Positions 25,504 through 43,520 of a DNA stretch of 45,000 nucleotides are shown here, piece after piece. The translations under genes were made by a program, and so were the position numbers. Source of the DNA: Rhodobacterales bacterium HKCCSP123 (lineage in GTDB: Bacteria > Pseudomonadota > Alphaproteobacteria > Rhodobacterales > Rhodobacteraceae); NCBI GenBank assembly GCA_015689745.1, contig WVSO01000001.1:1-45000 (forward strand). The letters are read 5' to 3'. The notes below the pieces were generated by a model that was not told the DNA's origin, searched no databases, and saw only the letters and a program-made list of their open reading frames with translations. How positions within the stretch are numbered: position 1 is the first letter of the stretch; the number at the start of each line of letters is the position of its first letter.

Positions 25504-25812
25504 TCAGACCTCGAGATCGGCGACGAATATCCCCGCGTGACCGCCCTTGCAGGACGCCACCAGCATTGCGCCCGCGCGGAGGTGTTCCGGATGGCGTTCA
25601 TAGGCGAGATGCGCCTCGCGATCGGTGAAGCTGACCTCGAAGCCATAGGCATAGCGCTGGGATTTGCCCTCGAAATCGCGGTTCGGGCCGTGGGCGAAGC
25701 CCGAAGCGCCGGGAAGGGACGCGCAGACCTCGGCGAGGATCGGCATGGCGGCCTGAACCTGTTCGAGGCCCGCCTGGCCGTCGGGCTCCATCAGGACGAC
25801 GTGGATCAGCAT
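25504..25812 (-). CDS. Dabb-family (dimeric alpha/beta barrel) protein
   Basis: A 102-residue protein starting MLIHVVLMEPDG, with GPNRDFEGKSQRYAYGFEVSFTDREAHLAYERHPEHL in the middle (the Dabb hallmark of D/N-x-S ... F.s.eal..Y..HP.H). Members dimerise; some are stress-responsive, some are enzymes or cofactor-less oxygenase relatives. It sits four bases after the glycerate kinase gene, so it belongs to block A. Its role in the pathway is unknown. Confidence 0.8.
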   Translation of the reverse strand: MLIHVVLMEPDGQAGLEQVQAAMPILAEVCASLPGASGFAHGPNRDFEGKSQRYAYGFEVSFTDREAHLAYERHPEHLRAGAMLVASCKGGHAGIFVADLEV

Positions 25813-25816
25813 GACC

Positions 25817-27049
25817 TTACCCTTCGATTAGGATGGCGCGGAAGTCGTTGACATTTGTGAGCGTCGGACCGGGCACCACCTGCCGGTTGATCTTGTAGAA
25901 GAAAGTGTGGGCATCGTTGGTGGCAAGCGCCTGTGCCGGATCGACGCCCGCCTCCTTCGCGCGGGGCAGCGTATCCGGGCCGATGACCGCACCTGCGACC
26001 TCGGCCGCGCCATCGACGCCGTCGGTGTCGCAGGCGATGGCATGGATACCCGGCGCAGCCTCAAGCGCGAGGGCGAGGGCAAGCGCGTATTCCGCATTGG
26101 GGCCGCCCACGCCGTCGCCGCGGCGGGTCACGGTCAGCTCTCCGCCCGACAGGATGACGCGCGGTCCGGTGGCGATGCGGGCCATTGCGGCATGATCGGC
26201 GGCGACCTCGCGTGCCTCGCCCTCGATCGCGTCTCCGAGGATGTCGACGTTGTAGCCATGCGCCCGCGCCAGCTCCGCGGCGGCGGCGAGCGATTGGGCG
26301 GGAGCCGCGTAGATCACGTTTTCCACCCGCGACAGGCGCGGGTCATCGGGGCGGACGGGATCACCGCCGGCGTCCAGGAAGGCCTTGATCGAGGCCGGTG
26401 GCGTGACACGCCACTTGTCGAGCGCGGCCAATGCGCGGGCGGCGCTGCCGTCATGGCCGACGGTGGGTCCGGAAGCGATGTCGCCCGGATCGTCGCCCGG
26501 TACGTCCGAGATGAGCAGCGCGAGCATCCGCGCCGGGTAGGCGGCGGCGGCAAGACGGCCGCCCTTGACCGCCGAGATTTCCTTGCGGATACCGTTGATC
26601 GTTCCGATGGGCGCCCCCGAGGAAAGCAAGGCCTGGGTCAACGCCTGCTTCTCGTCCAGCGTGATGCCGTCCGCCGGCGCACAGAGCAGCGCCGAGCCGC
26701 CGCCCGAGATCAGCGCAAGGACGAAATCCCCCTCGTCCAGCGTTGCGAGCAGGTCGAGCATGCGGCGCGTCGCCCGGACGCCTGCCATGTCGGGAACGGG
26801 ATGCGCCGCCTCGACGATCTCTATGCCGCGGCAAGGCCGGGCATACCCGTAGCGCGTGATGACAAGCCCCTCGCAGGGGCCCCATGCGGCCTCGACCGCC
26901 TCGGCCATGCGGGCGCTGGCCTTTCCGGCCCCGATCACGACGACACGGCCGGCGGGCTTCGGTGGAAGAGCCGCGGCGAGGCTTTGCATCGGGTCGGCAA
27001 CGGCCACGGCTCGGTCGAACATCGCGCGGAGCAAGTCGGGTGGTGTCAC
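25817..27049 (-). CDS. Glycerate 2-kinase (MOFRL/TtuD type)
   Basis: A 410-residue enzyme of the glycerate kinase type-2 family, which phosphorylates D-glycerate to 2-phosphoglycerate; older annotations call it hydroxypyruvate reductase TtuD. VVVIGAGKASARMAEAVE (34-51), LISGGGSALLCAPADGITL and the MOFRL block GGPNAEYALALALAL ... ACDTDGVDGAAEVAGAV are present. The GTG at 27049 overlaps the LacI-type gene stop (GTGA). In this operon it would feed a C3 acid from sugar oxidation into lower glycolysis. Confidence 0.88.
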   Translation of the reverse strand: MTPPDLLRAMFDRAVAVADPMQSLAAALPPKPAGRVVVIGAGKASARMAEAVEAAWGPCEGLVITRYGYARPCRGIEIVEAAHPVPDMAGVRATRRMLDLLATLDEGDFVLALISGGGSALLCAPADGITLDEKQALTQALLSSGAPIGTINGIRKEISAVKGGRLAAAAYPARMLALLISDVPGDDPGDIASGPTVGHDGSAARALAALDKWRVTPPASIKAFLDAGGDPVRPDDPRLSRVENVIYAAPAQSLAAAAELARAHGYNVDILGDAIEGEAREVAADHAAMARIATGPRVILSGGELTVTRRGDGVGGPNAEYALALALALEAAPGIHAIACDTDGVDGAAEVAGAVIGPDTLPRAKEAGVDPAQALATNDAHTFFYKINRQVVPGPTLTNVNDFRAILIEG

Positions 27050-28059
27050 GTGGCTTCCCCGGTGCTGGAGGTGCGGGCGATCAGGCGAACAGGCATGCGC
27101 ATTTCGGGCTCCGGGCGCTTTCCCTCGACCATCCAGGCCAGGAGCCGGGTGGCGGTGTCCTGCGCGAACTGCGCGATATCGCAGGAGACGGAGGAAAGCT
27201 GAGGCCAGCTTTGCGCGGCCTCTTCGATATCGTCGAAGCCGACGACTCGGAACTCGGTGCCAACCGGGCGCCCGGCGCGCGCGAAACCCGCGATCAGGCC
27301 AAGCGCCACGAGGTCGTTGAAACAGACGGCGGCGTCGATCTCCGGGTGCTCGGCGATCAGGGTCTCGGCCATTTCCATGCCGAAGGCACGGGAGGATTTG
27401 CCGTGTAGCGCGACTTGCTCGAGGCCCTCCTTCCTGAGGACCTCGCGCCAGCCGGACTTGCGCTCACGCGTGATGGCGCGGCCAGGCAAGCCGCCGACGA
27501 AGGCGACATTCTGCGCGCCCTTCTGAAGAAGGTGTTGCGTGGCCCTGGCGCTGCCGGTGGCATAGTCGAAGCTCGAGAAGGGGAAGAGGTCGGTGCGCTC
27601 ATCACCCTGCCTCAACACCTGCATCACGGGCAGCCCGCGGCGCGCCAGTTGGTCGAAGGTGTCGCGCGCCTCGCCATAGGCGGGCGAGATGACCATTGCA
27701 GAGACGCCGTGCTCGATCATGGAGCCGACAAGCTTCGCCTGCAATTCGACATCCTCGTCGGAATTGGCGATCACGGTTGCATAGCCCTCGGCCGCCAGCG
27801 CCATCTGCAGCGAGGTCGCGAACTCGGTGAAGAACGGGTTGCGCAGGTCGTTGATGACAAGGCCGACAAGCCCGACCGAGGACGAGCGCAGGTTCGCCGC
27901 GGCGCGGTTGTAGATATAGCCGATCTCGCCCATCGCCTTTTCCACGGCGGCGCGCGTTTCGTCCCGGACCTGCCTCGATCCCTGAAGGACGAGGGACACG
28001 GTGGATTTCGACACGCCCGCGCGGGCGGCGACATCCATGATGGTCGGACGACGGTTCAT
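27046..28059 (-). CDS. LacI-family repressor of block A (probable local regulator)
   Basis: A 337-residue repressor. The helix-turn-helix TIMDVAARAGVSKSTVSLVL (6-25) and hinge NRAAANLRSS are followed by a periplasmic-binding-protein-like sensor domain (GLVINDLRNPFF ... VVGFDDIEEAAQSWP). It lies inside the operon it probably controls, after the DUF993 gene and before glycerate kinase. The best target is the palindrome ATTGGATCGTTCCAAT, found upstream of both block A and block C, with the central CG expected for this family. The pairing is inference; the second LacI gene has its own differing operators. I chose the ATG at 28059; the upstream extension lacks homology. Confidence 0.9.
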   Translation of the reverse strand: MNRRPTIMDVAARAGVSKSTVSLVLQGSRQVRDETRAAVEKAMGEIGYIYNRAAANLRSSSVGLVGLVINDLRNPFFTEFATSLQMALAAEGYATVIANSDEDVELQAKLVGSMIEHGVSAMVISPAYGEARDTFDQLARRGLPVMQVLRQGDERTDLFPFSSFDYATGSARATQHLLQKGAQNVAFVGGLPGRAITRERKSGWREVLRKEGLEQVALHGKSSRAFGMEMAETLIAEHPEIDAAVCFNDLVALGLIAGFARAGRPVGTEFRVVGFDDIEEAAQSWPQLSSVSCDIAQFAQDTATRLLAWMVEGKRPEPEMRMPVRLIARTSSTGEAT

Positions 28060-28069
28060 GGCGACCTTG

Positions 28070-29248
28070 TTAGCCGCCGATCCCGTGCATGGCCAGAAGG
28101 CTCCGCATCCGCGCCTCGGCAAGATCGGGGCGTGTCAGAAGCCGGGCCTTGTCGGCGAGGCGGTAGACCTCGGCGTAATGGCTGATCTCGCGCGAGGACT
28201 GGAATCCGCCCGGCATGATGAAATGCGTCTGCGTTCCGTTCAGCCAGCTCAGGAAGGCGATGCCCGCCTTGTAGTACTGCGTGGGCGCCTTGAAGATCTC
28301 GCGGCTGAGCGGGACGGTCGGGGCCAAGAGCGCGTGATAGGTGTCGCTCTCGCCCTTCGCCAGCGCCTCGAGGGCCTGGGCAGCGGCGGGAGCTATGGCG
28401 GCGAAGATGCCGAGAAGCGCGTGGGAATGGTGGGTGCCGTCACCCTCGATCAGGGCGGCGTAGTTGAAATCGTCGCCTGTATAAAGGCGAACGCCCTCGG
28501 GCAGCTTCGCGCGGAACCCTTCCTCGTGCGACTGGTCGAGCAGGCTGATCTTGATGCCGTCGACCTGTGCCGCGTGACGCGTGATCAGGTCGAGGACGAT
28601 GCCATTCGCCGCCTCGACATCCCTTGCACCCCAGTATCCCGTAAGGGCGGGGTCGAACATGGCGCCAAGCCAGTGCAGGATCACGGGCTCGCGAGATTCT
28701 TCTATAAGAGTGTCGTAGACGCGGGCGTAGTCCTCCGGCCCGGCGCCGATCGCGGGAAGGGCGCGGGTCGCCATGAGGATGATCTGCCCGCCCGCGGCCT
28801 CGATCGCCTGCATCTGGGTGCGGTAGGCGTCGATGATCGCCTCGACACTGGTCAACTCGTCGAGGGCTTTGTGATCGGTCCCCGCCCCGCAGGCGACGCG
28901 GGGCTTCATCGGGTGGGCCTTTGCCTCGCGCATGGTGCGCTCGATCAGTTCCTTCGCGGTCGCCCAATCCACCCCCATGCCGCGCTGCGCGGTGTCCATC
29001 GCCTCGGCGAGGCCAAGGCCCTGGTCCCAGAGCGTGTGGCGGAAGGCGAGCGTCGCGTCCCAATCGACGGCGGGGCGACCCTGCCACGGGTCGCGCTCGG
29101 CCAGAGGGTCGGAAATGACATGGGCGGCGGCAAAGGCCGTGCGGGTCAGTGGCACGGCGGGCGCGCGCGGGGTCAGGGGATCGCCCGCAAGGCGGTAGTC
29201 TTGAAGCGTTCCGGCGTAAGTCGGCAGCAGCACGTCAGGCCCTCGCAT
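28070..29248 (-). CDS. DUF993 protein, dihydrodipicolinate-synthase-like lyase
   Basis: A 392-residue TIM-barrel protein of the DUF993 group, remote from DapA/NanA class I aldolases. VDGIKISLLDQ places Lys233 where DapA has its Schiff-base lysine (IKEATGD), and LYTGDDFNYAALIEGDGTHHSHALLGI matches the DapA GDD/G-rich segment. The DapA tyrosine block YNVPxRT is replaced by LHWLGAMFD. A retro-aldol or dehydratase on a keto sugar acid is likely; no defined reaction is known to me. It overlaps the GMC stop by 14 bases and precedes the LacI gene by 10. Confidence 0.78.
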   Translation of the reverse strand: MRGPDVLLPTYAGTLQDYRLAGDPLTPRAPAVPLTRTAFAAAHVISDPLAERDPWQGRPAVDWDATLAFRHTLWDQGLGLAEAMDTAQRGMGVDWATAKELIERTMREAKAHPMKPRVACGAGTDHKALDELTSVEAIIDAYRTQMQAIEAAGGQIILMATRALPAIGAGPEDYARVYDTLIEESREPVILHWLGAMFDPALTGYWGARDVEAANGIVLDLITRHAAQVDGIKISLLDQSHEEGFRAKLPEGVRLYTGDDFNYAALIEGDGTHHSHALLGIFAAIAPAAAQALEALAKGESDTYHALLAPTVPLSREIFKAPTQYYKAGIAFLSWLNGTQTHFIMPGGFQSSREISHYAEVYRLADKARLLTRPDLAEARMRSLLAMHGIGG

Positions 29249-30821
29249 CTTCGCGGATCATGTCGGCGGCTTTCTCGCCGATCATGATCGCCGCGGCATT
29301 GGTGTTGGACGAAATCACCTTCGGCATGATCGAGTTGTCCACGACGCGCAGGCGCTCGATGCCGTTCAGGCGCAGGCGCGTATCCACCACCGCGGCCGGG
29401 TCGCTGCCCATCTGGCAGGTGCCCGCGCAATGGTGCGACGTCTTCGAGTGTTCGCAGATGAAGTCGTAATATTCCTCGTCGGTCTTCACGTCCGGACCCG
29501 GCAGGCGCTCGGCCAGCACGTATTTTGACAGCGGCCCCTGCGCCATGATCTCCTGCGTCAACTTCAGGCCGCGGATCGACATCTCGCGGTCTTGTGGATC
29601 GGACAGGTAGTTCGGGTCGATCAGCGGGGCCGCGGCGGGGTCGGAGGAGGCGAGCCGCACCGTCCCCCGCGACCGCGGGCGCAAGTAGCAGGAATTCAGC
29701 GTCACCCCGCCCTGCGGCATGACCGCGACGCCCTTCTCGATCCCGGTGCCCAGCCCGAGGTGGAACTGGATATCGGGCGAACGCGCGTTCGGGTCGGCGT
29801 ACCAGAATCCACCCGTCTCGAAGAGCGACGAGGCAACCGGCCCCTTCCGCGTCAGCAGGTATTGGAGGCCGGCCAGCACGGCCATGTGAGGCTTGGCATA
29901 GCGGTCGTAGCTGTAGGGACCCCTCAGTTCGGAGATGCAGTAGAGGTCGAGGTGATCCTGCAGGTTCTCGCCCACCTGCGGCTGGTCTAGAACCACGTCG
30001 ATGCCGAGCGCGTGCAGATGATCCGCAGGGCCGATGCCCGACAGCTGCAACAGCCGTGGCGAGCCGATGGCACCGCCACTGAGCAACACCTCCTGCGCGG
30101 CGGTCAGGCGGGTGCCGTCGGTCAGCTCCACCCCGGTAGCGCGCCCGCCTTCGACCGTGATCCGCCGCACCTGCGCGCCGGTGCGGACGGTCAGGTTCGG
30201 GCGGCCCTCGTTCGGGGCGACATAGGCCATCGCGGCGGACGACCGACGCGCATTGCGCTGCGTCAGCTGGTAGTAGCAGACGCCGTCCTGCATCTCGCCG
30301 TTGATGTCCATATTGCGGGGGATGCCGAGCTGTGCCGCAGCCTCGAAATAGGCCTCGCAGATCGGCAGGGGTGCGATGGGCTGCGAGACGCCGAGCGGGC
30401 CGCCCTTGCCGTGGTAGCGGTTGTCGTAAGTGTCGTTGTCCTCGGCCTTGCGGAACCAGGGCAGCACATCCTCGTAGGACCAGCCGTCGCAGCCCATCTG
30501 CCGCCATTCGTCGTAATCCTGCGCGTTCCCGCGCGTGTAGATCTGCGCGTTCAGGGACGAGCCGCCGCCGATCACCTTGCCTTGCGTGTAGTTGAAGACG
30601 CGGTTCTTCATGTGGCGTTGGGGCACGGTCTCCCACCCCCAGGACCCCAGCCCCTTGGTCATCTTCGCAAAACCCGCGGGCAGGTGGTAAAGCGGGTTGC
30701 GGTCGCGGCCCCCGGCCTCGAGCAGGAGAACGGTGGCCGCCGGGTCTTCGCTGAGGCGCCCGGCCAGCACGCACCCGGCGCTGCCGCCGCCGATGATGAT
30801 GTAGTCGAAACCTTCGGCCAT
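29235..30821 (-). CDS. GMC-family oxidoreductase (choline-dehydrogenase-like subgroup)
   Basis: A 528-residue flavoprotein. FDYIIIGGGSAGCVLAGRL (5-23) binds FAD; GKVIGGGSSLNAQIYTRG (81-98) is the first GMC signature and LLSGGAIGSPRLLQLSGIG the second. Catalytic-region SHHCAGTCQMG and NTNAAAIMIGEKAADMI lie at the C-terminus. Relatives oxidise choline, PEG or long-chain alcohols; substrate here is unknown, and the carbohydrate operon suggests a polyol or sugar. No signal peptide, so cytoplasmic or membrane-peripheral, probably passing electrons to quinone. Confidence 0.88.
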   Translation of the reverse strand: MAEGFDYIIIGGGSAGCVLAGRLSEDPAATVLLLEAGGRDRNPLYHLPAGFAKMTKGLGSWGWETVPQRHMKNRVFNYTQGKVIGGGSSLNAQIYTRGNAQDYDEWRQMGCDGWSYEDVLPWFRKAEDNDTYDNRYHGKGGPLGVSQPIAPLPICEAYFEAAAQLGIPRNMDINGEMQDGVCYYQLTQRNARRSSAAMAYVAPNEGRPNLTVRTGAQVRRITVEGGRATGVELTDGTRLTAAQEVLLSGGAIGSPRLLQLSGIGPADHLHALGIDVVLDQPQVGENLQDHLDLYCISELRGPYSYDRYAKPHMAVLAGLQYLLTRKGPVASSLFETGGFWYADPNARSPDIQFHLGLGTGIEKGVAVMPQGGVTLNSCYLRPRSRGTVRLASSDPAAAPLIDPNYLSDPQDREMSIRGLKLTQEIMAQGPLSKYVLAERLPGPDVKTDEEYYDFICEHSKTSHHCAGTCQMGSDPAAVVDTRLRLNGIERLRVVDNSIMPKVISSNTNAAAIMIGEKAADMIREDARA

Positions 30822-30830
30822 GGTTGTCCC

Positions 30831-31571
30831 CTAAAGCCGGTGGATGGAAAGCCCGCCATCGACGGGGATCACGGCCCCGGTGGCAAAGGCGAAATCGCCG
30901 CTGGCGAGCGGCAGGATGGTTCTTGCGATATCGTCAGGCGTGCCCCAGCGGCGCGCGGGCACAAGGCCGTCGGCGATGCGTTGGTCGTAGCGATCGGCGA
31001 CGGGGGCCGTCATGGGCGTTTCGATGATGCCGGGGCGGATGTCGTACACACCGATGTTCTCTGCGGCGAGGCGGGCGGCGAAGGCCTGTGCCATCATCGC
31101 GGCCCCGGCCTTGGAGATGCAGTATTCCGCGCGGTCGGGCGAGACCATCGTGGCGCTGACCGAGGTGATGAAGCTGATCGAGCGGTAGGGAGCGGGTGGA
31201 AGGGCAAGCATCCGGCGGGCGACTTCTTGTGCAAGAAAGAACGCGCCGCGCAGGTTCACGTCGATGCAGCGGTCGAAGCTGTCGGGCGACATTTCGAGCA
31301 GGTCGCCGCGCCGCATCGCGGGGACGCCCGCGTTGGAAATGAGCGTGGTGACGGGGCCTGTCGCGTCCAGCAACGCGGGGATGCCGGACAGGTCGGACAG
31401 GTCGTGCCGGTGGTAGGTCGCGCCGGGCATCGCGGCCAGGGCCGCCTCGACGGCGGGGGCCTCGGGCGGCTGTTCGGCGGCCAGCACCACCTGCCAGCCC
31501 GCACCATGCAACGCCTGCGCGATGCCAAGGCCGATGCCCTGTTGCCCGCCAGTGATCAGAGCGCGGTTCAT
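30831..31571 (-). CDS. Short-chain dehydrogenase in block A
   Basis: A 246-residue NAD(P)-dependent SDR. TGGQQGIGLGIAQAL (7-21) binds the cofactor, ISNAGVP replaces NNAG, and the catalytic set is SVSATMVSPDRAEYCISKAG (Ser, Tyr, Lys as YCISK). The C-terminus IPVDGGLSIHRL is typical of sugar-polyol SDRs. The ATG at 31571 overlaps the stop of the upstream GMC gene (ATGA); nine bases separate it from the next GMC gene. Likely oxidises or reduces a sugar or sugar acid intermediate. Confidence 0.85.
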   Translation of the reverse strand: MNRALITGGQQGIGLGIAQALHGAGWQVVLAAEQPPEAPAVEAALAAMPGATYHRHDLSDLSGIPALLDATGPVTTLISNAGVPAMRRGDLLEMSPDSFDRCIDVNLRGAFFLAQEVARRMLALPPAPYRSISFITSVSATMVSPDRAEYCISKAGAAMMAQAFAARLAAENIGVYDIRPGIIETPMTAPVADRYDQRIADGLVPARRWGTPDDIARTILPLASGDFAFATGAVIPVDGGLSIHRL

Positions 31572-33043
31572 GCCACCTCCTGCGCGATGCGGTCGGCCTG
31601 CCTCAGCGCCAGCGCCGCGATGGTGAGCGACGGGTTCACCGCAGCCGAGGTCGGCAGAAGCGAGGCGTCGCAGATCCAGAGATTCGGGTGATCGTGGCAG
31701 CGCCCGAACGGGTCGGTGACGCTGGTCGCGGGGTTCTCGCCCAGCCGCGCCGTGCCGCATTGATGCGAGGGCGTGGACCGGTCGAAGGCTTTCGACAAGA
31801 GCACAGGGAAGCCCGCCCGGCGCAGCGCGCCCTTGAGCCTGGCGACAAGCGCCAGGTGCGCCTCCCAATTCGAGCGGCGCCAGTCCAGCACGATGTCGTC
31901 GCCGCGAAGGGTCACGCGGCTGTCGGGCTGCGGCAGGTCCTCGGACATGACGTAGAAGTCGATGGCGCGACCCGCGATCAGCCTTGCCACCGGCCCCGGC
32001 AGCCCCGTTTGCGCGGCAAGGATCGGGGCCGAGACGCGGCCGAGAAGCTGGATGTTGCCCAAGGGCTCGCCCTGCGGCCCGCCGGTCAGGTACCAGTCGT
32101 TCAGCATCAGGGTTTTCTGGTAGACCGATCCGTTCCGCCGCGGCGACAGCGCCAGCAAGGCCGAGGCGTTGTGGTTCATGAAGTTCCGCCCCACCTGGTC
32201 GGAGCGGTTGGCAAGGCCGTTGGGGTGCGCCTCATCCGCCGAGCGCAGCAACAGCGCGGCGGTGTGGACCGCCCCCGCGGCCAGCACGATGCGCGGCGCG
32301 GTGAACCGGCCCTTGTCGGTCGACACGCCGGTCACGCGGTCGCCCTCGGCCTCGAGCCGCTGGACCCTCACGCCGGTTTGAAGCCGCACGTTCGGGTGCT
32401 GCAACGCGAGCGTCAGCGCGGCGGTTTCGGCATCCAGCTTGCCGCCCGTGGTATCCGGGAAGGCATCCCAAGGCGTTTGCGCACGGGCGAGCCAACGGTC
32501 GATGTCCACGGCGAGCGGCAGCGGCGCGGGGTGGAGGCCCGCAGCGCGCAAGCGGCGGTCGAGATCGGCGATGGCGGGTTCGTGCGGCACGGGCGGAAAG
32601 GGGAAGTTCGCCGCGCGCGGCGGATCGGTCGGGTCGACGCCCCCCTGCCCCCGGACCTGGTAGAGCGCCTCGGCGCGGTCATACCAGGGCGCGAGCGTAT
32701 CATAGGGAAAGGGCCAGCCGGGGGTGGTGCCGCCGATGTGGCGGATCGGGGCGAAATCGGCCTCGCGGTAACGGATCATCACCGCGCCGTAGAACTTGGA
32801 ATTGCCGCCGACGAAGGCGTAATTGCCGGGGTTGAAGCGGGTGCCCTCGGGTGTCAGCCATGTCTCGGCGGGGCGGAAATGGCCGCGGGCGAAGATGGCG
32901 GAGGGGTCGCGCGCCTCCGCGCAATCCTCCAGCCGCTGCCCTCGTTCGAGGATCAGGATGCGCAGCCCCGTGGGCGCAAGCCCAGCGGCCAGCGTCGCGC
33001 CCCCCATGCCGGAGCCGACAATGATGACATCGGCGTCGCTCAT
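31568..33043 (-). CDS. GMC-family oxidoreductase (sugar/glucoside dehydrogenase subgroup)
   Basis: A 491-residue flavoprotein and first gene of block A. DVIIVGSGMGGATLAAGL (5-22) binds FAD. The C-terminus PSHQCGTARLG ... NPSLTIAALALRQADRI contains the catalytic His-Asn pair of the subgroup including fructose, gluconate and glucoside-3 dehydrogenases; these act on sugars. It lacks a signal peptide. The ATG at 33043 follows a GGGAGGAT ribosome site, and an operator sits 29 bases upstream. It differs strongly from the other GMC protein two genes downstream, so they likely act on different steps. Confidence 0.87.
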   Translation of the reverse strand: MSDADVIIVGSGMGGATLAAGLAPTGLRILILERGQRLEDCAEARDPSAIFARGHFRPAETWLTPEGTRFNPGNYAFVGGNSKFYGAVMIRYREADFAPIRHIGGTTPGWPFPYDTLAPWYDRAEALYQVRGQGGVDPTDPPRAANFPFPPVPHEPAIADLDRRLRAAGLHPAPLPLAVDIDRWLARAQTPWDAFPDTTGGKLDAETAALTLALQHPNVRLQTGVRVQRLEAEGDRVTGVSTDKGRFTAPRIVLAAGAVHTAALLLRSADEAHPNGLANRSDQVGRNFMNHNASALLALSPRRNGSVYQKTLMLNDWYLTGGPQGEPLGNIQLLGRVSAPILAAQTGLPGPVARLIAGRAIDFYVMSEDLPQPDSRVTLRGDDIVLDWRRSNWEAHLALVARLKGALRRAGFPVLLSKAFDRSTPSHQCGTARLGENPATSVTDPFGRCHDHPNLWICDASLLPTSAAVNPSLTIAALALRQADRIAQEVA

Positions 33044-33063: not shown

Positions 33064-33087
33064 CAATAGCTATTGGATCGTTCCAAA
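33064..33087. promoter_or_regulatory. LacI-type operator of block A, overlapping a perfect palindrome
   Basis: ATTGGATCGTTCCAA at 33072-33086 is a near-perfect palindrome centred on CG, repeated exactly at 43579-43593 before block C. It sits 29 bases before the GMC start, where it would block promoter or early transcription. The same stretch overlaps a perfect 12-base palindrome CAATAGCTATTG at 33064-33075, specific to this site. The block-internal LacI protein is the likely binder. Confidence 0.7.
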
Positions 33088-33132: not shown

Positions 33133-33136
33133 CGTG

Positions 33137-36038: not shown

Positions 36039-36094
36039 CGGCCCCCCTCCCCTTCGTGTTGCGTGATGGGTCGGCCCGCGGATGGGCCGGGTGC

Positions 36095-36121: not shown

Positions 36122-36133
36122 TGGTGCGCAGGA

Positions 36134-37384
36134 TTACTGCGCGATCTCGACGGCGGTGACGAGTTCCGCGGCTGCGGTCTCGGCGTCGTACTCGCCGTTG
36201 AAGTGCGCCGTGATCACGTCATACATCGCGTTCTGCACGGAGGGCGGGTTGGCATGGCCGTGGGCCATCGAGCCGAACAGGCCACCGCTTGCCGCCGCTT
36301 CCGCCAGCTGCGCCATGCCCATCTGGCCACAGGCGTCGAACTGGTCGGAGGGGATGTCGGTCCGCGCGGGAACCGAGCCCTTCACGAGGTTGAAGGCGAC
36401 CTGGAACTCGGGGCTCATCACGGCCGAGGCCATGGCAAGCTGCGCTTCCTGTGCCGAGGCGTCCGTCACATTGAACATGGCGAACTGGTCCGAGTTGAAG
36501 GTCACGGTGCCTTCGGTGCCCGGCACGCGGAAGCACTGGAACTCGTTGCCGGCCGTCAGGCCCGCGTTGACGAATTCACCCTTCGCCCAGTCACCCATGA
36601 TCTGGAACAGCGCTTCGCCGTTGATGACCATCGCGGTCGCGAGGTTCCAGTCGCGACCCGAGAAGTTGTCATCGACGAAGCCACGCAGCGTTTCCATGCG
36701 CTGGAACGCCTCGACCATGGTGGCCGAGCCGAGCGCCTCGGGGTCGAGATCGACCATCGACGCCTGGTAGAAGTCGGGGCCGCCGACGCCCATCACCATC
36801 GAGTCGAAGATGGTTGCGTCCTGCCAGGCCTGACCGCCGTGGGCGAGCGCCACGTAACCGGCTGCTTCGGCCGCTTCCATCGCCGCGACGAACTCGTCCC
36901 AGCTGGTCGGCTGCTCGATGCCAAGCTCGGCCATCAGCGCCGTGTTCGCCCAGACCCAGTTGGTCGAGTGGACGTTCACGGGTGCTGCGACCCAGTGGCC
37001 GTCATAGGTCGAGAAGGCCTGCAGCGCCGCCGGCACCACGTCGCCCCAGCCCTGTTCGGCGGCCAGCGCATCGAGGTTGGCAAGCGCGCCTTCGGCGGCC
37101 CAGTCCTGGATCGAGAAGCCGAGCATCTGCACGGCAGTCGGCGGGTCGCCGGCGGTGACGCGTGCACGCAGAACGGTCATGGCGTCCGAGCCGCCGCCAC
37201 CGGCGACCGGCATGTCAAGCCAGCTGACGCCGCCCGCGGCGAGCGTGTCGCGGAGCGTGCCCACGGCCGCGGCTTCGCCGCCGGAGGTCCACCAGTGCAG
37301 AACTTCCACCTCCTGGGCTGCGACCGCGGTGGTCGACAGCGCCACGACGGCAGCCGTCATGTGCAGTTTCTTCATCATGGTCAT
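36134..37384 (-). CDS. Carbohydrate ABC transporter substrate-binding protein
   Basis: A 416-residue periplasmic protein with signal peptide [20 protein letters not shown], cleaved about residue 23. The mature start [17 protein letters not shown] and [13 protein letters not shown]-like region ([19 protein letters not shown]) closely resemble glucose/mannose-type binding proteins of the CUT1 class, such as pseudomonad GtsA. A ribosome site AGGGAGG lies nine bases before the ATG at 37384. It starts the transporter operon, divergent from the second LacI gene. Glucose or a gluco-type derivative is the likeliest ligand. Confidence 0.88.
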
Positions 37385-37432
37385 TCGTCGGTTCCTCCCT
37401 TGCTGACCATCGCCCTTGTCGGGCTTGTGGGT

Positions 37433-37449
37433 ATTGAAACGTTATAAAT
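37433..37449. promoter_or_regulatory. LacI-type operator, transporter side
   Basis: ATTGAAACGTTATAAAT, centred on AACGTT, about 50 bases before the binding-protein start. One half-site (TTGAAAC) is a classic LacI-family half-site; the other is degenerate. The same TTGAAACGTT core recurs at 37563-37572 next to the divergent repressor gene. Confidence 0.6.
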
Positions 37450-37562
37450 CTATCGTTCGTCAACCATAAATTGCGCCTCGGCATATCGAAGATTCTGCAG
37501 AACTTACAGTTTCAAAACGGATTTTCTGCAGCGCAGCGCCGCCTGAGAGTTCATCTTTCGTG

Positions 37563-37577
37563 TTGAAACGTTTGAAA
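37563..37577. promoter_or_regulatory. LacI-type operator, repressor side
   Basis: TTGAAACGTTTGAAA shares its ten-base TTGAAACGTT core with the site at 37433-37449. It ends 11 bases before the first possible start of the divergent LacI-type gene, so binding would give autorepression. The two sites are about 130 bases apart, which would allow looping between them. Confidence 0.6.
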
Positions 37578-37588
37578 TTCACGGCATT

Positions 37589-38653
37589 ATGGAGCGAGAT
37601 GCAACCCTTGGGCGAGCTGCGAAGATGGGCAACGACCTCGACGCCACCACACCGACGGACACGGGAGAAAGGCCGACTCTGCGCACCGTTGCGCAAGCGA
37701 CAGGCTTTGCCGTGGCCACGGTTTCGCGCGCGTTGTCGGGCGATCCGCGAATCGCGGAAGGCACCCGGACCAAGGTCGCCGAGGCCGCCAGGAGGCTCGG
37801 CTATGTTCCCGACCGTGCCGCACGACGTCTGCGCACAGGACGCACCCAGGTCATCAGCCTGCTTCTGAACACCGAGCACGAATTTCTCGGATTCACCCAT
37901 GAATTCCTGACCGGAATCATCGAGGCGCTGGCCGGCACAGGCTATGCCGTGACGGTCGTTCCCGACAGCCCGGGCGAGGACCGCCTGGGCCCGGTGCGCA
38001 CGATCCTGCGCAACAACCTCGCGGATGGACTGCTCTTCACCCGGACCGAGGCCTTCGACCCGCGCGTCCGCCTTCTGATGGAGGCAGATTTCCCCTTTGT
38101 CAGTCATGGCAGGACCGAGTTCACCACACCCCATCCCTGGGTCGATTTCGACAACGAGGCCTTCGCCCGCGCCGCGGTCGAGCGACTGGTCGCCAAGGGG
38201 CGAAGCCGCCTGAGCCTGGTGCTTCCGGGCGAGCAGTTCACCTTCACCCAGCATCTGCGCTATGGGTTCGTGTCGGCGGCCCGTGCCGCCGGGATCGAGT
38301 ACGAAATCGTCGCGGGCGTCACGCTCGACAGCCCGACGCGCGACATCGCCGAGGCGCTGATGCGCGCGCGGCGCGGCCCGACCCCGCCTGACGGCTATGT
38401 CTGCGTGGGCGAGGTGACGGCCATGGTCGCGCTGGCCGCGCTGGCCGATACCGGGGCCGTTCACGGCGTCGATGCGGATATCGTGGCCAAGCGCGCCTCG
38501 CCGATCTTCGACAACATCCGTCCGCGAATCGACACCGTGTTCGAGGACCTGCGCGCGACGGGACGGTCGATGGCCGAGATGCTGCTGCGCCGCATGGCGG
38601 GGGAACCGCCCGAGAACCTGCACCGGCTCTTTCACCCCGATCCGCCGCGCTAG
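37589..38653 (+). CDS. LacI-family repressor of the ABC transporter
   Basis: A 354-residue repressor. The helix-turn-helix is TLRTVAQATGFAVATVSRAL and the hinge RAARRLRTG; the sensor domain follows (VISLLLNTEHEFLGFTHEF). The first ATG at 37589 has no visible ribosome site; an in-frame ATG at 37625 (MGNDLDATTP) would shorten the leader by 12 residues and is equally plausible. It is transcribed divergently from the transporter operon with operators in between. Its stop lies two bases from the stop of the convergent aldehyde dehydrogenase gene. The sugar effector is unknown. Confidence 0.9.
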   Translation: MERDATLGRAAKMGNDLDATTPTDTGERPTLRTVAQATGFAVATVSRALSGDPRIAEGTRTKVAEAARRLGYVPDRAARRLRTGRTQVISLLLNTEHEFLGFTHEFLTGIIEALAGTGYAVTVVPDSPGEDRLGPVRTILRNNLADGLLFTRTEAFDPRVRLLMEADFPFVSHGRTEFTTPHPWVDFDNEAFARAAVERLVAKGRSRLSLVLPGEQFTFTQHLRYGFVSAARAAGIEYEIVAGVTLDSPTRDIAEALMRARRGPTPPDGYVCVGEVTAMVALAALADTGAVHGVDADIVAKRASPIFDNIRPRIDTVFEDLRATGRSMAEMLLRRMAGEPPENLHRLFHPDPPR

Positions 38654-38655
38654 GG

Positions 38656-40179
38656 TCATGCCACCCAGGCCCCCCGCGTCCGGCCGATGCGCATCTGGAC
38701 GGTCTTCACCTCAAGGAATTCCTCGAGGCCGTAGCGCCCAAGCTCCCGGCCCTGTCCGCTCTCCTTGAACCCGCCGAAGGGCAGTTCGGCGAAGCCGTCC
38801 ATCCAGGTGTTCGTCCAGACCGTCCCGGCCTGCACCCGCCGCGCGAAATCGAGACAGGTCGAGACATCGCGGCTCCAGACGCCCGCCGAAAGCCCATAGG
38901 TGGCGCCGTTCGCCAGCGCGATGGCCTCGTCGAAATCTCGGAAGGTCAGGACCGATAGCACCGGGCCAAAGACCTCCTCGGTCGCGATGGGCATCTCGGG
39001 GCGCACAGCCGTCACGATGGTCGGCTGGTAGAATTGCGCGCCAAGGCCGCCGACATCCAGCGCCGCACCGCCCAGCGCGACACGCGCGCCCGCGGCGACG
39101 GCGCCACGCACGTAGCCGTCGATCTTGGCGAGATGCTCGGGCGAAATGATCGCGCCCACCTGCGTGCGCGCGTCGAGCGGGTCGCCGAAGGGCACCCGGC
39201 GGCTCAGCGCCACGACCTTCTCGGTCAGCGCCTCGGCCACGTCCTCGTGCACGATGATCCTGCTACCGGAATTGCAGCATTCGCCCGCGTTGAAATAGAC
39301 GCCGAACGCGATCGCGTCAGCGGCCTGGTCGAGATCGGCATCCGGAAAGATCACCTGCGGATTCTTGCCGCCGAGCTCGAGGCTGACCTTCTTCAGCGTC
39401 GCACTGGCCGCCGCGGTGATGCGCTTGCCCACGCCAGTCGACCCGGTGAACGAGACCATGTCGATACGGGGATCGGTCGACAGGGTCTCGCCCACCGGGT
39501 CACCGTAGCCCAGCACGATGTTGCACACACCGCCGGGCAGCCCCGCTTCCTCCAGGATCCTGCCCAGCATCACCGTGGTGCCCGGGGTCAGCTCCGAGGG
39601 TTTGACAACCGCAGTACAGCCGGCGGCCAGCGCGAAAGGCAGTTTTTGCGAGACGATGAGGAACGGAAAGTTCCAGGGCGTGATGAGCGAGACGACCCCG
39701 ATTGGTTCCTTCAGCACCAGGCCCAGCATGTCGGGGCCAAGGCTGTTGTGGCTGTCGCCATGCATCGTGCGCGCCAGGGCAGCGGCATAGCGCCAGAGGT
39801 CGGCTGCCCCCTCGCTCTCGGCAAGCGCCTGGCTGATCGGCTTGCCCGATTCCAGCACCTCCTGCCGCGCGATCGCCTGCTGGTCACGGTCGATCAGGTC
39901 GGCGACCCTGAGCAGCAGCGTGGCCCGGTCCTTGCCCGAGGCGCGGCTCCATTCGCCCGCGTCAAAGGCCGCCCGCGCGGCGGCGATGGCGGCCTCCGCC
40001 TCGGCCCGGGCTCCCTTGGCGGCGATCGACACGGGCACGCCATGCGCAGGCGAACGTCGCTCGCTGGTGGCGCCGTCGGCGCTGTCGCGCCAAGCGCCGC
40101 CGATCCAGTGGCGGAGCGTCATGGGCTCGGCCGGAAGCGCGGCGGTGTTCGAGGCAGGGATGACGGTCAGGTCTTGCAT
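38656..40179 (-). CDS. NAD(P)-dependent aldehyde dehydrogenase
   Basis: A 507-residue aldehyde dehydrogenase oxidising an aldehyde to an acid. Visible are ITPWNFPFLI (166-175), FTGSTGVGKRI (244-254), the base Glu in SLELGGKNP (E268) and the nucleophile in FNAGECCNSGSR (C302 by alignment to the GQxCT motif). It belongs to the betaine-aldehyde/succinate-semialdehyde-type ALDHs; the substrate is not evident. Last gene of block C, three bases after the enoyl-CoA hydratase gene. It converges with the LacI gene at a two-base gap with no room for a terminator. Confidence 0.9.
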   Translation of the reverse strand: MQDLTVIPASNTAALPAEPMTLRHWIGGAWRDSADGATSERRSPAHGVPVSIAAKGARAEAEAAIAAARAAFDAGEWSRASGKDRATLLLRVADLIDRDQQAIARQEVLESGKPISQALAESEGAADLWRYAAALARTMHGDSHNSLGPDMLGLVLKEPIGVVSLITPWNFPFLIVSQKLPFALAAGCTAVVKPSELTPGTTVMLGRILEEAGLPGGVCNIVLGYGDPVGETLSTDPRIDMVSFTGSTGVGKRITAAASATLKKVSLELGGKNPQVIFPDADLDQAADAIAFGVYFNAGECCNSGSRIIVHEDVAEALTEKVVALSRRVPFGDPLDARTQVGAIISPEHLAKIDGYVRGAVAAGARVALGGAALDVGGLGAQFYQPTIVTAVRPEMPIATEEVFGPVLSVLTFRDFDEAIALANGATYGLSAGVWSRDVSTCLDFARRVQAGTVWTNTWMDGFAELPFGGFKESGQGRELGRYGLEEFLEVKTVQMRIGRTRGAWVA

Positions 40180-40182
40180 GGG

Positions 40183-40950
40183 TCAGGCTCCCGGAAACTC
40201 GGGTTTGCGTTTCTCGGCGAAGGCTGCGACGCCCTCGGCCTTGTCGGCGCTGGCGCCGATCATGCCGCCGCCAAGCGCCTCGATCATCGCGGAGGTGTCT
40301 TCGCCGGCAGCGGCGTGGATCTGGTACTTCGCCACTTCCGTGGCGCGCGGCGAGGCCTTCAGCACCCCCGCGGCGATGGTTTCGGCCACGGCAAGCGGGT
40401 CCTCGACCACCTCGGCCACGAAGCCGAGCGCATGGGCGCGTGGCGCTTCGATGCGCCGCCCGAAGAGCGCCATCTCTTTCACCACCGGCTCCGGCAGCAA
40501 CCGCAACAGGCGCTGCGTGCCCGACCAGCCCGGCACGATGCCGACCTGCGCCTCGGGCAGGGCGAGCGTTGCGCCGGGGGCCATCACGCGGATGTCGCAG
40601 CAGGCGGCCAGTTCCAGCCCGCCGCCGAAGGCATGCGCCTGCAGTACCCCGATTGTGGGTTTCGAGAGCCGCGCCAGCCGGTCGAAGATGCGATGCCCCT
40701 CGCGCACCCAGTGACGCGCGAAATCGAAGGGCGACAGCGGCGCCCAGGCCTTGATGTCGGCCCCGGCGCAAAACGCCCTCTCCCCCTCGGATCGCAGGAT
40801 CACGCAGCGGATCGCCGCCGCGCGCTCCAGCGTGGCGCAATGCGCCTCGAGCTGCGCCAGCATCTCGGGCGTGAAGGCATTGAGCTTGGCCGGGTTGTCC
40901 AGCACAACATGGGCGATGGGCCCGTCGGTCTGCAGGTGAACCGCGCTCAC
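40183..40950 (-). CDS. Enoyl-CoA hydratase/isomerase
   Basis: A 255-residue crotonase-fold enzyme. Oxyanion-hole regions are AFCAGADIKAW (59-69) and AFGGGLELAACCD (107-119). Both catalytic glutamates are present: E113 (GGGLELA) and E133 (LALPEAQVG), 20 residues apart as in active hydratases. The GTG at 40950 overlaps the CoA-transferase stop (GTGA). With the CoA-transferase it suggests a CoA-ester branch in block C. Confidence 0.88.
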   Translation of the reverse strand: MSAVHLQTDGPIAHVVLDNPAKLNAFTPEMLAQLEAHCATLERAAAIRCVILRSEGERAFCAGADIKAWAPLSPFDFARHWVREGHRIFDRLARLSKPTIGVLQAHAFGGGLELAACCDIRVMAPGATLALPEAQVGIVPGWSGTQRLLRLLPEPVVKEMALFGRRIEAPRAHALGFVAEVVEDPLAVAETIAAGVLKASPRATEVAKYQIHAAAGEDTSAMIEALGGGMIGASADKAEGVAAFAEKRKPEFPGA

Positions 40951-42518
40951 AGTCTCAGCCCCATCGGTGCGTCGCGCAGAAGCGACAGGGGCAGGGTCAC
41001 CGCATCGGGGGCCACGCGCACGCGCCCGCCGCTTGCCGCCTCGATGTCGCGGGCAGGATCGATGCCCGGCATGATCTCGGTTGCGATGAGCCCCTCGGCG
41101 GTCAGGCGGATGACGCAACGTTCGGTGACGTAGATCACGTCCTGCCCCTGGGCCACGGCGCGGGCACCCGAGAAGGTGACATGCTCCACGGCCTCGACCA
41201 TCTTGGTGAACTTGCCGGGGCGGGCGACGCGCAGACCGGTGTCGGTCAGCTCCAGCTCGGCCCCGGCCTCGAAATAGCCCGAGAAGACGATCTTCCTCGC
41301 ATGGGCCGTGATATCGACGAAGCCACCGCAGCCCGCGGTCAGGTACGGTTTTTTTCCCAGCTTCGAGACGTTCACGTTCCCCTCCACGTCCACCTCGAGG
41401 AAGGACAGGAAACTCACGTCGAAGCCGCCGCCCTGGAAAAAGGTGAACTGGTTGGGGCTCGGCACGAAGGCATCGGCATTGGACGCGCAGCCGAAGGCGA
41501 AACCGGTCAGGGGCATCCCCCCGACCGCGCCCTGTTCGATGGCCCATGTCACCGCCTGCGCATAGCCTTCTTCCAGAAGAATGCGGGGGACCATGGCCGA
41601 GATGCCGAAGCCCAGGTTCGCGGTCTGACCGCGCTTCAGTTCCATCGCGGCACGGCGGGCGATGACCTTTTCGACGCCATGCTCGGCCAGACTGAAACTG
41701 TCCCAGGGTCGCATGATTTCGCCCGAGATGGCAGGATCATAGGGTGTTTCGGTGGTCTGCTTCTGGTCGGGTGCCACCACGACCAGATCGACGAGATGCC
41801 CCGGGACATGCACGTCATGGGGCCTCAGACTGCCCGCCGCGGTCATCCGCTTGACCTGCGCGATCACGAGACCGCCGTGGTTGCGCACGGCGATGGCCTG
41901 GTCGAGCGCACCGAGATAGGCACCCTCGTGCTCGTAGGTCAGGTTGCCTTTCTCATCCGCGGTGGTCGCGCGGATGATCGCGACGTCCGGCACGATGTTC
42001 GGGAAATGCAGCCATGTCTCGCCTGCGAAGTCGACGCGACCCACGATGGGCGCCGCCGCGCCGCGTGCGTTCATTGCGCAGCCCTCGCGGATAGGGTCCA
42101 CGAAGGTCTGAAGCCCGACCTTCGTCAGTACGCCGGGCCTGCGGGCGGCCACGTCCCGGTGCATGTCGAACATGATCCCGGAGGGCACGTTATAGGCCGC
42201 GACGCGGTCCTCGACGACCATCTTCCAGATCTCGGGCATCGGCAGCGACGACGGCCCGGAGGGGTAACTGCCTGCGATGATCCGGTCGAGCAGACCGTCC
42301 TTCGCGATGTGGTCCACGCCCTTCACGCCATACATGTCGCCCGCGGCGATCGGGTGCAGCGTGGTGAGGCCGCGGGGATGCCCTTCGGCCTCGAACCGGT
42401 CGCCGAGCGCCTTGAGCACCGCGTCGGGGCAGCCGAGGGCAGAGGAGGAGGAGACGGTTACCACGGCCCCATCGGCGATGCGGGCGACGGCCTCGGTGGC
42501 GGTGACGTGCTTTCCCAT
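40947..42518 (-). CDS. Family I acyl-CoA transferase (fused alpha-beta)
   Basis: A 523-residue CoA-transferase with both domains in one chain, like propionate/acetate CoA-transferases (YdiF type). The catalytic glutamate lies in AIEQGAVGGMPLTG (E328), the typical ExGxIGG motif. The N-terminal half starts VTATEAVARIADGAVVTVSS. It moves CoA between acyl-CoA donors and an organic acid, activating it for the next enzyme, the enoyl-CoA hydratase. It begins three bases after the reductase gene and overlaps the hydratase start. Confidence 0.85.
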   Translation of the reverse strand: MGKHVTATEAVARIADGAVVTVSSSSALGCPDAVLKALGDRFEAEGHPRGLTTLHPIAAGDMYGVKGVDHIAKDGLLDRIIAGSYPSGPSSLPMPEIWKMVVEDRVAAYNVPSGIMFDMHRDVAARRPGVLTKVGLQTFVDPIREGCAMNARGAAAPIVGRVDFAGETWLHFPNIVPDVAIIRATTADEKGNLTYEHEGAYLGALDQAIAVRNHGGLVIAQVKRMTAAGSLRPHDVHVPGHLVDLVVVAPDQKQTTETPYDPAISGEIMRPWDSFSLAEHGVEKVIARRAAMELKRGQTANLGFGISAMVPRILLEEGYAQAVTWAIEQGAVGGMPLTGFAFGCASNADAFVPSPNQFTFFQGGGFDVSFLSFLEVDVEGNVNVSKLGKKPYLTAGCGGFVDITAHARKIVFSGYFEAGAELELTDTGLRVARPGKFTKMVEAVEHVTFSGARAVAQGQDVIYVTERCVIRLTAEGLIATEIMPGIDPARDIEAASGGRVRVAPDAVTLPLSLLRDAPMGLRL

Positions 42519-42521
42519 GGC

Positions 42522-43520
42522 TCAGATCCCGCCGTAATCGACTGCGACGCGGCGTCCGGTTTGCGCGGCTTCGGCGACGGCCGCGGCCACGGCCAGAGAC
42601 TTCACGCCATCCACGCCGTCGGCAGACGGGCGATCCTGGCCCCGTACCGCCTCGACGAAAAGGCCGACGGAACGGACGTATAGGTTGTGATCGGAGAAGG
42701 TCAGCGCCTCCTTTCCGCTCGCCGTGCGCAGGGTGATCTGACCCACCGGGTCCTGCGTCATGACATTGCGGGCGATGATCGACCCTTCGGTTCCGTGGAT
42801 TTCGAAGCCGGTGGGCGCATGCGCATGGGTAAAGCTTTCGTGGGTCTGCACCATCACCCCGGACGGCATGGTCCAGACGGACATGCAACTGTCTTCGACC
42901 CCCCTGCCGAGACCTGAGGCCGCCGCCATCGCCACCACCTCGGCGGGGTCCTCGGCCAGGTGAAACCGCACGGTGTCGGCATCATGCACGACGATATCGG
43001 GGATCACGCCGCCACCCGCCGCGGGGTTGTCGATACGCCAGCCCTGCAGGACGGGCGGCAGGTGGACGGCATGGAACACCCTGACCGAAAGAACCTGCCC
43101 GATCCTCCCCTGCCGCACTGCCTCGCGCATGGCGATGTGGCTGCCGGCGTTGCGCAGGTGATGATTGGTAGCAAAGACGACACCCGCGCGCTCGGCTGCA
43201 CGCACCATCGTCACCGCATCACCAACGGTCATCGCGAGGGGCTTTTCGCAAAGCACGTGCTTCCCGGCCGCGATGGCTGCCATCGCCTGGTCGAAATGCT
43301 TTTCGTTTGTGGTCGAGATGTAGACGGCATCCAGCCCGGTCTCCTCGAGAAAGGGAGCGAGATCGCTGGAACTGTGCGGGATGCCATGTTCGCCCGCGTA
43401 GCTGGCGGCGCGCGCTGCACTTGAACTCAGAACCGAGACGACCTCGCCATCCGCGGCCCTGAAGGCGTCGATCATGCGCGTTGCCGCGATATGGCTTGCG
43501 CCGATGAGACCCCACCGCAT
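42522..43520 (-). CDS. Gfo/Idh/MocA oxidoreductase, 1,5-anhydro-D-fructose-reductase-like
   Basis: A 332-residue NADP/NAD sugar oxidoreductase. WGLIGASHIAATRMI (3-17) binds the nucleotide and EKPLAM (92-97) carries the catalytic lysine. The middle (TNHHLRNAGSHIAMREAV, then VFHAVHLPPVLQGWR, VHDADTVRFHL and GTEGSIIARNVMTQDPVG) closely follows, from memory, the 1,5-anhydro-D-fructose reductase of Sinorhizobium morelense. It may reduce that keto sugar or a related one. First gene of block C, with an operator 59 bases upstream. Other family members oxidise myo-inositol or glucosides, so substrate is uncertain. Confidence 0.82.
   Translation of the reverse strand: MRWGLIGASHIAATRMIDAFRAADGEVVSVLSSSAARAASYAGEHGIPHSSSDLAPFLEETGLDAVYISTTNEKHFDQAMAAIAAGKHVLCEKPLAMTVGDAVTMVRAAERAGVVFATNHHLRNAGSHIAMREAVRQGRIGQVLSVRVFHAVHLPPVLQGWRIDNPAAGGGVIPDIVVHDADTVRFHLAEDPAEVVAMAAASGLGRGVEDSCMSVWTMPSGVMVQTHESFTHAHAPTGFEIHGTEGSIIARNVMTQDPVGQITLRTASGKEALTFSDHNLYVRSVGLFVEAVRGQDRPSADGVDGVKSLAVAAAVAEAAQTGRRVAVDYGGI

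Follow-up and report, generated by a model that had tools for sequence, protein, structure and literature searches.

The window analysed here is a stretch of 45,000 nucleotides from Rhodobacterales bacterium HKCCSP123 (contig WVSO01000001.1), and the subject of this study is a set of sixteen genes at positions 25504-43520. These genes almost certainly form one conserved pathway unit. Taken as a whole, the set is best explained, tentatively, as an inducible aerobic catabolic regulon for the 1,5-anhydrohexitols 1,5-anhydro-D-fructose (AF), 1,5-anhydro-D-glucitol (AG) and 1,5-anhydro-D-mannitol (AM). Fifteen of the sixteen genes lie on the minus strand with their ends overlapping or close, the exception being the second LacI gene on the plus strand. 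Block C contains, from upstream to downstream on the minus strand, a Gfo/Idh/MocA oxidoreductase of the 1,5-anhydro-D-fructose reductase (AFR) type (Gfo), a CoA-transferase (CoAT), an enoyl-CoA hydratase (ECH) and an aldehyde dehydrogenase (ALDH). Block B comprises a binding protein, two permeases and an ATPase, with the divergent LacI_C on the plus strand. Block A consists of GMC2, a short-chain dehydrogenase (SDR), GMC1, a DUF993 protein, LacI_A, a glycerate 2-kinase (GK2) and a small Dabb-domain protein. The families named for this region in the initial annotation were all matched by Pfam over curated cut-offs among the sixteen proteins. Its proposal of one catabolic unit acting oxidatively on a gluco-type sugar derivative is supported by gene co-occurrence, a common operator and the families themselves.

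The order GMC2-SDR-GMC1-DUF993, a synteny that the initial annotation had left to be searched for in other genomes, was kept in 31 of the 41 named loci fetched with DUF993, two of the 41 being too short for their gene content to be judged. Block B adjoins these genes in 30 of the 31. The Shimia ponticola locus (L024) is without block B but carries Gfo-CoAT-ECH directly upstream of the block A genes. In the Microvirga, Mesorhizobium and Aminobacter loci, five in all, DUF993 has the transporter, ALDH, ECH, CoAT and Gfo as neighbours, with GMC1, GMC2 and SDR missing nearby, and three actinobacterial DUF993 loci hold none of the gene set. The nearest named relatives of the locus belong to Roseicyclus, with DUF993 up to 90% identical. 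Among 149 Rhodobacterales genomes, DUF993 (at least 72% identity) was found in 17, the AFR-type Gfo in 19, CoAT (at least 78%) in 26 and GMC2 (at least 57%) in 28, with identity cut-offs that were placed at identity gaps and chosen after viewing the matches. The four sets are nested: the DUF993 genomes all have the AFR-type Gfo, CoAT and GMC2 (17/17), the Gfo genomes all have CoAT (19/19) and the CoAT genomes all have GMC2 (26/26). Fisher p-values on this co-occurrence ignore shared ancestry, and the 149-genome sample overlaps the 41 named loci by at least six pairs in common. The conserved order and the co-occurrence exceed chance.

The same linkage is seen at the level of distance. The starts of CoAT and DUF993 are 6.1-14.2 kb apart in 14 other genomes that have both on one contig (G202 and G239 were excluded, their genes being on different contigs). 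DUF993 at 51-58% identity occurs in 11 further genomes, and in four of them it adjoins a CoAT of 61-62% identity. Across 192 genomes of the class, DUF993 was present in 20 and the AFR-type Gfo in three, namely the window's own genome, G138 and G058. In G138, which lies outside Rhodobacterales, the genes of A, B and C form a single co-directional run (L101). The initial annotation had joined blocks A and C in one locus; both blocks occur in all 17 DUF993 clusters of the 149 genomes and share an operator. Unrelated neighbouring operons are ruled out by the co-occurrence together with that operator.

Within the 3.97-Mb genome the palindrome TTGGAWCGWTCCAA has exactly two occurrences, one ahead of block A and one ahead of block C, and its backward-pattern control gave 0 matches genome-wide. 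The two putative operators, both TATTGGATCGTTCCAA, are at 33071..33086, 28-43 bases ahead of the GMC2 start, and at 43579..43594, 59-74 bases ahead of the Gfo start. A scan of the fetched loci (about 2 Mb, overlapping, so that the sites are not independent) gave 66 sites when up to one mismatch was allowed; 61 of them are no more than 300 bases ahead of a cluster gene, and the remaining five include the window's own two. The operator precedes Gfo or CoAT where these head the cluster and GMC2 where block A stands apart. It precedes DUF993 in the Microvirga, Mesorhizobium and Aminobacter loci, a different Gfo (Gfo2) in the sister clusters described below, and a kinase of the 2-keto-3-deoxygluconate (KDG) type in L103. 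Thirteen further loci gave sites in 12, all but one site being ahead of Gfo or GMC2. Because the palindrome stands only before A and C, and is found ahead of the same genes in relatives, blocks A and C are one regulon. Their likely regulator is LacI_A (27046..28059, minus strand; PF00356/PF00532), since it is the LacI retained in 25 of the 26 CoAT clusters, the 26th being cut by the fetched range; it would bind the putative site TTGGATCGTTCCAA. Its start was set at 28059 instead of the ORF start at 28122 because this position comes after the DUF993 stop. Block B has two sites of a different operator, TTGAAACGTTNNAA (37434-37447 and 37563-37576), beside LacI_C (37589..38653, plus strand; PF00356/PF00532), and we propose that LacI_C regulates block B through them.

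The substrate is suggested by the reductase that heads block C (42522..43520, minus strand). It is identical to the crystallised 1,5-anhydro-D-fructose reductase 2glx at 188 of 330 aligned residues (57%), and matches to it at E<=1e-50 are confined to 2glx and 4koa. Lys93, Asp175 and His179, which we take to be the active-site residues of AFR, are kept in 16 of 16 sequences of this type. The NCBIfam models for levoglucosan and inositol dehydrogenases were far below cut-off for this protein (LevoglcsnDh, 90 of 650 bits). The initial annotation had the family right but missed the AFR type, for which the predicted activity is an NADPH-dependent reduction of AF to AM. The binding protein (36134..37384, minus strand) is of the glucose-binding type, matching 4r2b (552 bits) and 5dvf (391 bits), both presumably glucose-binding proteins, and 2b3b (139 bits), an entry named 'glucose-binding protein'. 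It belongs to a CUT1 transporter with permeases at 35139..36038 and 34258..35142 (both PF00528) and an ATPase at 33137..34252 (PF00005, PF17912), all on the minus strand. GMC2, the first gene of block A (31568..33043, minus strand), resembles FAD glucose and fructose dehydrogenases, its nearest PDB entries being 8hdd (glucose dehydrogenase) and 7w2j (fructose dehydrogenase). From these resemblances a 1,5-anhydrohexitol is the probable substrate; the substrate is read from one enzyme, the AFR-type reductase, and the chemistry from enzyme families. Six sister clusters replace Gfo by Gfo2, for which the best NCBIfam model is levoglucosan dehydrogenase (290 bits, cut-off 650), and levoglucosan is another anhydrosugar. 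One related locus (L015) is from Rhodophyticola porphyridii, a species presumably isolated from a red alga. According to a passage of PMC12441222, red algae and fungi form AF by the action of alpha-1,4-glucan lyase on starch.

No enzymes of the set are more constant than CoAT and ECH, which occur in 26 of 26 clusters, and a role as a side branch is disfavoured for them. The initial annotation had placed the CoA-ester genes in a separate branch; as members of the same regulon they should instead carry out a step of the pathway. CoAT (40947..42518, minus strand; PF01144) is a single-chain transferase of the YdiF type, with 323 bits to YdiF (2ahu) over residues 6-521, and Glu328, which we take to be the catalytic Glu of single-chain family I, is kept in 26/26. 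ECH (40183..40950, minus strand; PF00378) has the crotonase fold, with 3-hydroxypropionyl-CoA dehydratase (5zai) as its best PDB match. Its E113 and E133, presumably the crotonase catalytic glutamates, are likewise kept in 26/26. The nearest PDB entries of ALDH (38656..40179, minus strand; PF00171) are an NAD-dependent ALDH (3u4j) and L-sorbosone dehydrogenase (7w5l), with the catalytic Cys in 29/29. GMC1 (29235..30821, minus strand; PF00732/PF05199) is distant from GMC2 and nearest to choline-dehydrogenase-type oxidases, with the choline dehydrogenase NCBIfam models below cut-off and His464/Asn508 kept in 57/57. The SDR (30831..31571, minus strand; PF13561) matches NF009386, '3-ketoacyl-ACP reductase', over cut-off, keeps its Tyr/Lys in 44/44 and is always present in the DUF993 clusters tabulated. 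GK2 (25817..27049, minus strand) is a MOFRL-type protein with PF13660 (DUF4147) and PF05161 (MOFRL), and its best NCBIfam model is glycerate 2-kinase, below cut-off (170 of 550 bits). The Dabb gene (25504..25812, minus strand; 102 aa, PF07876 33.9 bits) is usually a member of the unit, occurring in 23 of 26 clusters, frequently at low identity.

How, then, might these enzymes work together? In the mechanism that we propose, reasoned from enzyme families, the CUT1 transporter would take up the sugar, GMC2 would form AF by oxidizing AG at C2, and the AFR-type reductase would convert AF to AM with inversion of C2. GMC1, acting on the primary alcohol, and ALDH would then bring C6 to the carboxylate, and the CoA-transferase would form the CoA thioester, by which H5 would be acidified. 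ECH would remove H5 and the C4 hydroxyl to give an enol ether, and hydration at C5 would give a hemiketal that opens to a 2-keto-3-deoxy acid. In the AM-derived acyl-CoA, H5 would be alpha and OH4 beta to the thioester and both on the same face, which would fit the syn elimination required by crotonases. On paper the manno compound yields exactly D-KDG (numbered from C6, the keto group is at C2', C3' is without oxygen and both remaining hydroxyls are right), and the gluco compound AG would yield its C5 epimer. That only the manno form gives D-KDG would explain the inversion of C2 by the reductase. DUF993 and SDR would split the product into pyruvate and a C3 unit that becomes D-glycerate, which GK2 would phosphorylate to 2-phosphoglycerate. 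The CoA-dependent ring opening to KDG is conceivable, if somewhat short of probable. The more specific scheme, in which a crotonase opens the inert ether ring of a 1,5-anhydrohexitol through a CoA-thioester sugar acid, the inversion by AFR sets the D-KDG stereochemistry, and DUF993 serves as the lyase of a second, non-phosphorylative exit for KDG, is slightly less probable still. A pathway with this gene set was not found in the openly licensed literature on anhydrofructose, anhydroglucitol and anhydromannitol, with a description elsewhere being possible, and the sugar-acyl-CoA names returned nothing in the openly licensed literature searched.

The proposed exit enzyme is the DUF993 protein (28070..29248, minus strand; PF06187, 582 bits). 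In a Foldseek search with its predicted structure (pLDDT 87.6), 4dnh, an uncharacterised S. meliloti structure, came first, and rows 2-50 were of the DHDPS/NAL family by title, with E from about 1e-8 and TM (target-normalised) of about 0.7-0.8. By this model the fold of DUF993 is that of the class I aldolases (DHDPS). Its Lys233, the candidate lysine of a class I lyase, and H192 and R89 are kept in 73/73. DUF993 is likely a C-C lyase, with the cleavage predicted. The same role, together with recovery of carbon by glycerate 2-kinase, had been put forward in the initial annotation; the cleavage and the recovery as 2-phosphoglycerate still stand as predictions. GK2 is present in 11 of the 17 DUF993 clusters. 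DUF993/PF06187 was named in no paper of the openly licensed literature searched. A second DUF993 type, 50-58% identical to the window's, has as its partners a Gfo of another kind (GfoDUF) and a PF01261 TIM barrel. It occurs in L043-L047, L049, L050, L052-L057, L059, L061 and L082, at about 53-57% identity, and many of these loci add an MR_MLE_C enolase-superfamily protein. They are a separate uncharacterised conserved set. The candidate rule that DUF993 is always partnered by a Gfo and a PF01261 barrel holds for this second type in other clusters but not for the window's.

Natural variants of the unit bear on the predicted product. The 26 CoAT clusters comprise 17 with SDR and DUF993, one (G210) with SDR and glycerate kinase and without DUF993, seven with an SdhA-like protein and one (G276) with none of these. 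The SdhA-like protein is a 689-aa FAD_binding_2 flavoprotein, and its seven clusters are without SDR, DUF993 and glycerate kinase; Gfo2 takes the place of the AFR-type gene in six of the seven. The flavoprotein stands in for SDR and DUF993 (L063-L066, L068-L070 and L083-L088). Eight clusters thus have neither SDR nor DUF993 nor glycerate kinase. A PfkB kinase occurs in four of these eight and in none of the 17 with DUF993. KDG kinase is its best NCBIfam model (230 bits; the next model has 104, and the cut-off of 400 is not reached), and it is a probable KDG kinase, by which KDG would be phosphorylated instead in the sister clusters. In G332 (L103) a KDG-type kinase lies beside a second AFR-type gene and a transporter under the same operator. 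Among the eight clusters, the half with this kinase fits a KDG product, whereas the kinase-free half does not, and with four of eight it is rejected as a universal replacement for DUF993, SDR and GK2. The term 'non-phosphorylative' used in the initial annotation therefore suits the DUF993 form but not the sister clusters with the KDG-type kinase (4/8). In L060, from another family, CoAT, ECH, SDR, DUF993, GMC1 and glycerate kinase are joined by an extra hydrolase nearest to 2,4-didehydro-3-deoxy-L-rhamnonate hydrolase (366 bits, cut-off 500). Enzymes of that family convert a diketo-deoxy acid to pyruvate and a hydroxy acid, which suggests pyruvate and glycerate as products here. Loci L074-L076 have an added acyl-CoA dehydrogenase and two aldo-keto reductases (named by eye).

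Several observations weigh against an anhydrohexitol pathway of this form. The enzymes are known here by sequence and family and not by activity, the hydration of the enol ether is without an assigned gene, and SDR, Dabb and the SdhA-like flavoprotein of the sister clusters are without an explained role. The AFR-type gene is missing in seven of the 26 CoAT clusters, and AFR-type genes also occur without the gene set (L102 in G058; L103). As fetched, ALDH was not seen in four of 26 clusters and GK2 not in six of the 17 DUF993 clusters, at least two of these six misses being cut by the fetched range. Aligning the sequence profiles of DUF993 and of the DHDPS proteins encoded in this genome by hhalign gave no significant match: K233 falls on the lysine of such a DHDPS-family protein, but the probability is only 1.8. 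At the cut-off used, the operator was not found in 18 of the 41 named loci, many leaders lying outside the fetched flank. The KDG kinase is absent from four of the eight clusters expected to need it, G199 has no KDG kinase anywhere in its genome at E<=1e-40, and one of six closely related kinases is in an unrelated place (L110). Finally, L074-L076, L060 and L073 use CoAT, ECH, SDR and DUF993 without AFR, GMC2 or the operator (not found there at up to one mismatch), and because of this the CoAT/ECH/SDR/DUF993 kit may serve another substrate and is not tied to anhydrohexitols.

Other readings of the same genes have to be considered. In the first, GMC2, the SDR or a Gfo enzyme would make a 3-keto anhydrosugar whose ring opens by beta-elimination, DUF993 would cleave the product, and the CoA genes would handle a later short acid. 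Beta-elimination from a ketosugar is established for levoglucosan according to a passage of PMC10066097. Gfo2 resembles levoglucosan dehydrogenase, and the second DUF993 type adjoins a Gfo and a PF01261 TIM barrel. We nevertheless regard this route as unlikely, for a PF01261 eliminase was neither found by Pfam among the sixteen window proteins nor recognised in the AFR-type clusters, and the constancy of CoAT and ECH is unlike that of a side branch. A second reading keeps the CoA logic but applies it to glucose or a 2-keto-aldose (osone): an aldonate would be formed, CoAT and ECH would serve as its CoA-dependent dehydratase, taking aldonyl-CoA to KDG-CoA, and the AFR-type enzyme would act on the osone. 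The glucose-type binding protein, the similarity of GMC2 to FAD glucose dehydrogenase, an ALDH near L-sorbosone dehydrogenase and the glucokinase- and Edd-like genes adjoining the L060 cluster (by eye) speak for it, and AFR reduces osones too. A further point concerns smc04396, which we take to encode the binding protein of the S. meliloti AFR locus. A passage of PMC4960864 reports its induction by dextrin. CoA-free aldonate dehydratases are well known, however, so that the use of CoA would be wasteful, and both the C2-inverting reductase and its replacement by a levoglucosan-dehydrogenase-like protein are left unexplained; the osone or aldonate route is thus quite unlikely.

A third reading follows the published scheme, in which AM is oxygenated at C1 to give mannose and CoAT, ECH, ALDH and DUF993 process something else that is co-induced. 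As summarised in PMC12441222, Sinorhizobium morelense converts AF to AM and then to mannose through a P450-like C1 hydroxylation by an unidentified enzyme, a route that also counts against ours. P450-family matches occur at five places on four contigs of the window's genome. None of them is on the window's contig, and a scan of 83 cluster loci for the P450 haem motif found none; a P450 in the cluster is rejected on both grounds. The oxygenating enzyme was never identified, and the reductase has the CoA genes as its conserved partners, which leaves C1 oxygenation improbable for this locus. The reading in the initial annotation, an oxidative non-phosphorylative gluco-type route with a separate CoA-ester branch, agrees with the families and with a DHDPS-fold DUF993 beside a glycerate kinase, yet it has little probability since A and C are one regulon and a sugar-acid dehydratase of a known type was not found by Pfam among the sixteen window proteins.

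Around the locus, a tRNA, a 5S and the 3' part of a 23S rRNA gene lie at 43861-45000 on the minus strand, directly upstream of block C. A ribokinase-like PfkB kinase is near block A on the opposite strand (23556-24479, plus), without an operator ahead. At 21918-23488 two abutting minus-strand ORFs in different frames resemble the halves of one AMP-dependent synthetase (by eye) and look as if split by a frameshift or a sequencing error.

The AFR enzyme has been known since 2006. The 1,5-anhydro sugars resemble glucose but are without its usual reactive carbon, and in humans such a sugar undergoes no appreciable breakdown. With a conserved regulon now attached to AFR, the next step of 1,5-anhydro sugar breakdown becomes directly testable, and DUF993 can be assigned a fold, a place in an operon and, as a prediction, a reaction. 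The gene set spans marine and soil bacteria and, if our proposal of a 1,5-anhydrohexitol regulon is right, would be an oxygen-tolerant pathway for these sugars; carbohydrate catabolism would gain a new principle if an intact hexose-derived acid were activated with CoA so that its ring could open. Passages of PMC12441222 describe 1,5-anhydroglucitol as the precursor of a toxic metabolite in two inherited neutropenias and state that lowering it in the gut by microbes would need an aerobic enzyme. GMC2 and its neighbours are candidates for such enzymes.

Among known systems, the closest is the AF catabolism of Sinorhizobium (AFR; PDB 2glx, 4koa), which has the same AFR-type reductase with the catalytic residues kept. 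Whereas the published route there leads from AM to mannose by C1 oxygenation, a CoA route to KDG is proposed here, with DUF993, CoAT, ECH and ALDH in the same regulon. The AFR of S. meliloti is, we assume, SMc04400, near SMc04390-SMc04392. A list in PMC12542648 gives SMc04390 as L-sorbose dehydrogenase, SMc04391 as an SDR and SMc04392 as a dehydrogenase. The anaerobic glycyl-radical pathway for 1,5-AG6P (YbiW/PflD; Ma 2024, as summarised in PMC12441222) shares the substrate class but uses a phosphorylated substrate and oxygen-sensitive radical chemistry, and its families, as given there, were not matched by Pfam in the window cluster. The levoglucosan dehydrogenase pathway (LgdA, LgdB1, LgdB2, LgdC) likewise has a Gfo-family entry enzyme and ABC uptake, and the sister clusters carry the LgdA-like Gfo2; in contrast, the window cluster is without the PF01261 eliminase and adds the CoA genes, the GMC enzymes and DUF993. 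Oxidative deoxyribonate catabolism, reportedly described by Price in 2019, is said to combine sugar-acid oxidation, CoA thioester intermediates and a glycerate kinase in one pathway, as in our proposal, but with cleavage by a DUF849 beta-keto acid cleavage enzyme instead of DUF993 and with no AFR. The non-phosphorylative Entner-Doudoroff pathway also combines a DHDPS-fold aldolase candidate, an ALDH and a glycerate 2-kinase. In the window cluster DUF993 would take the place of a known KDG aldolase (PF00701 had no match among the sixteen proteins), no known gluconate dehydratase is present (IlvD/Edd and the enolase superfamily likewise had no Pfam match there), and a CoA-transferase and a crotonase are found.

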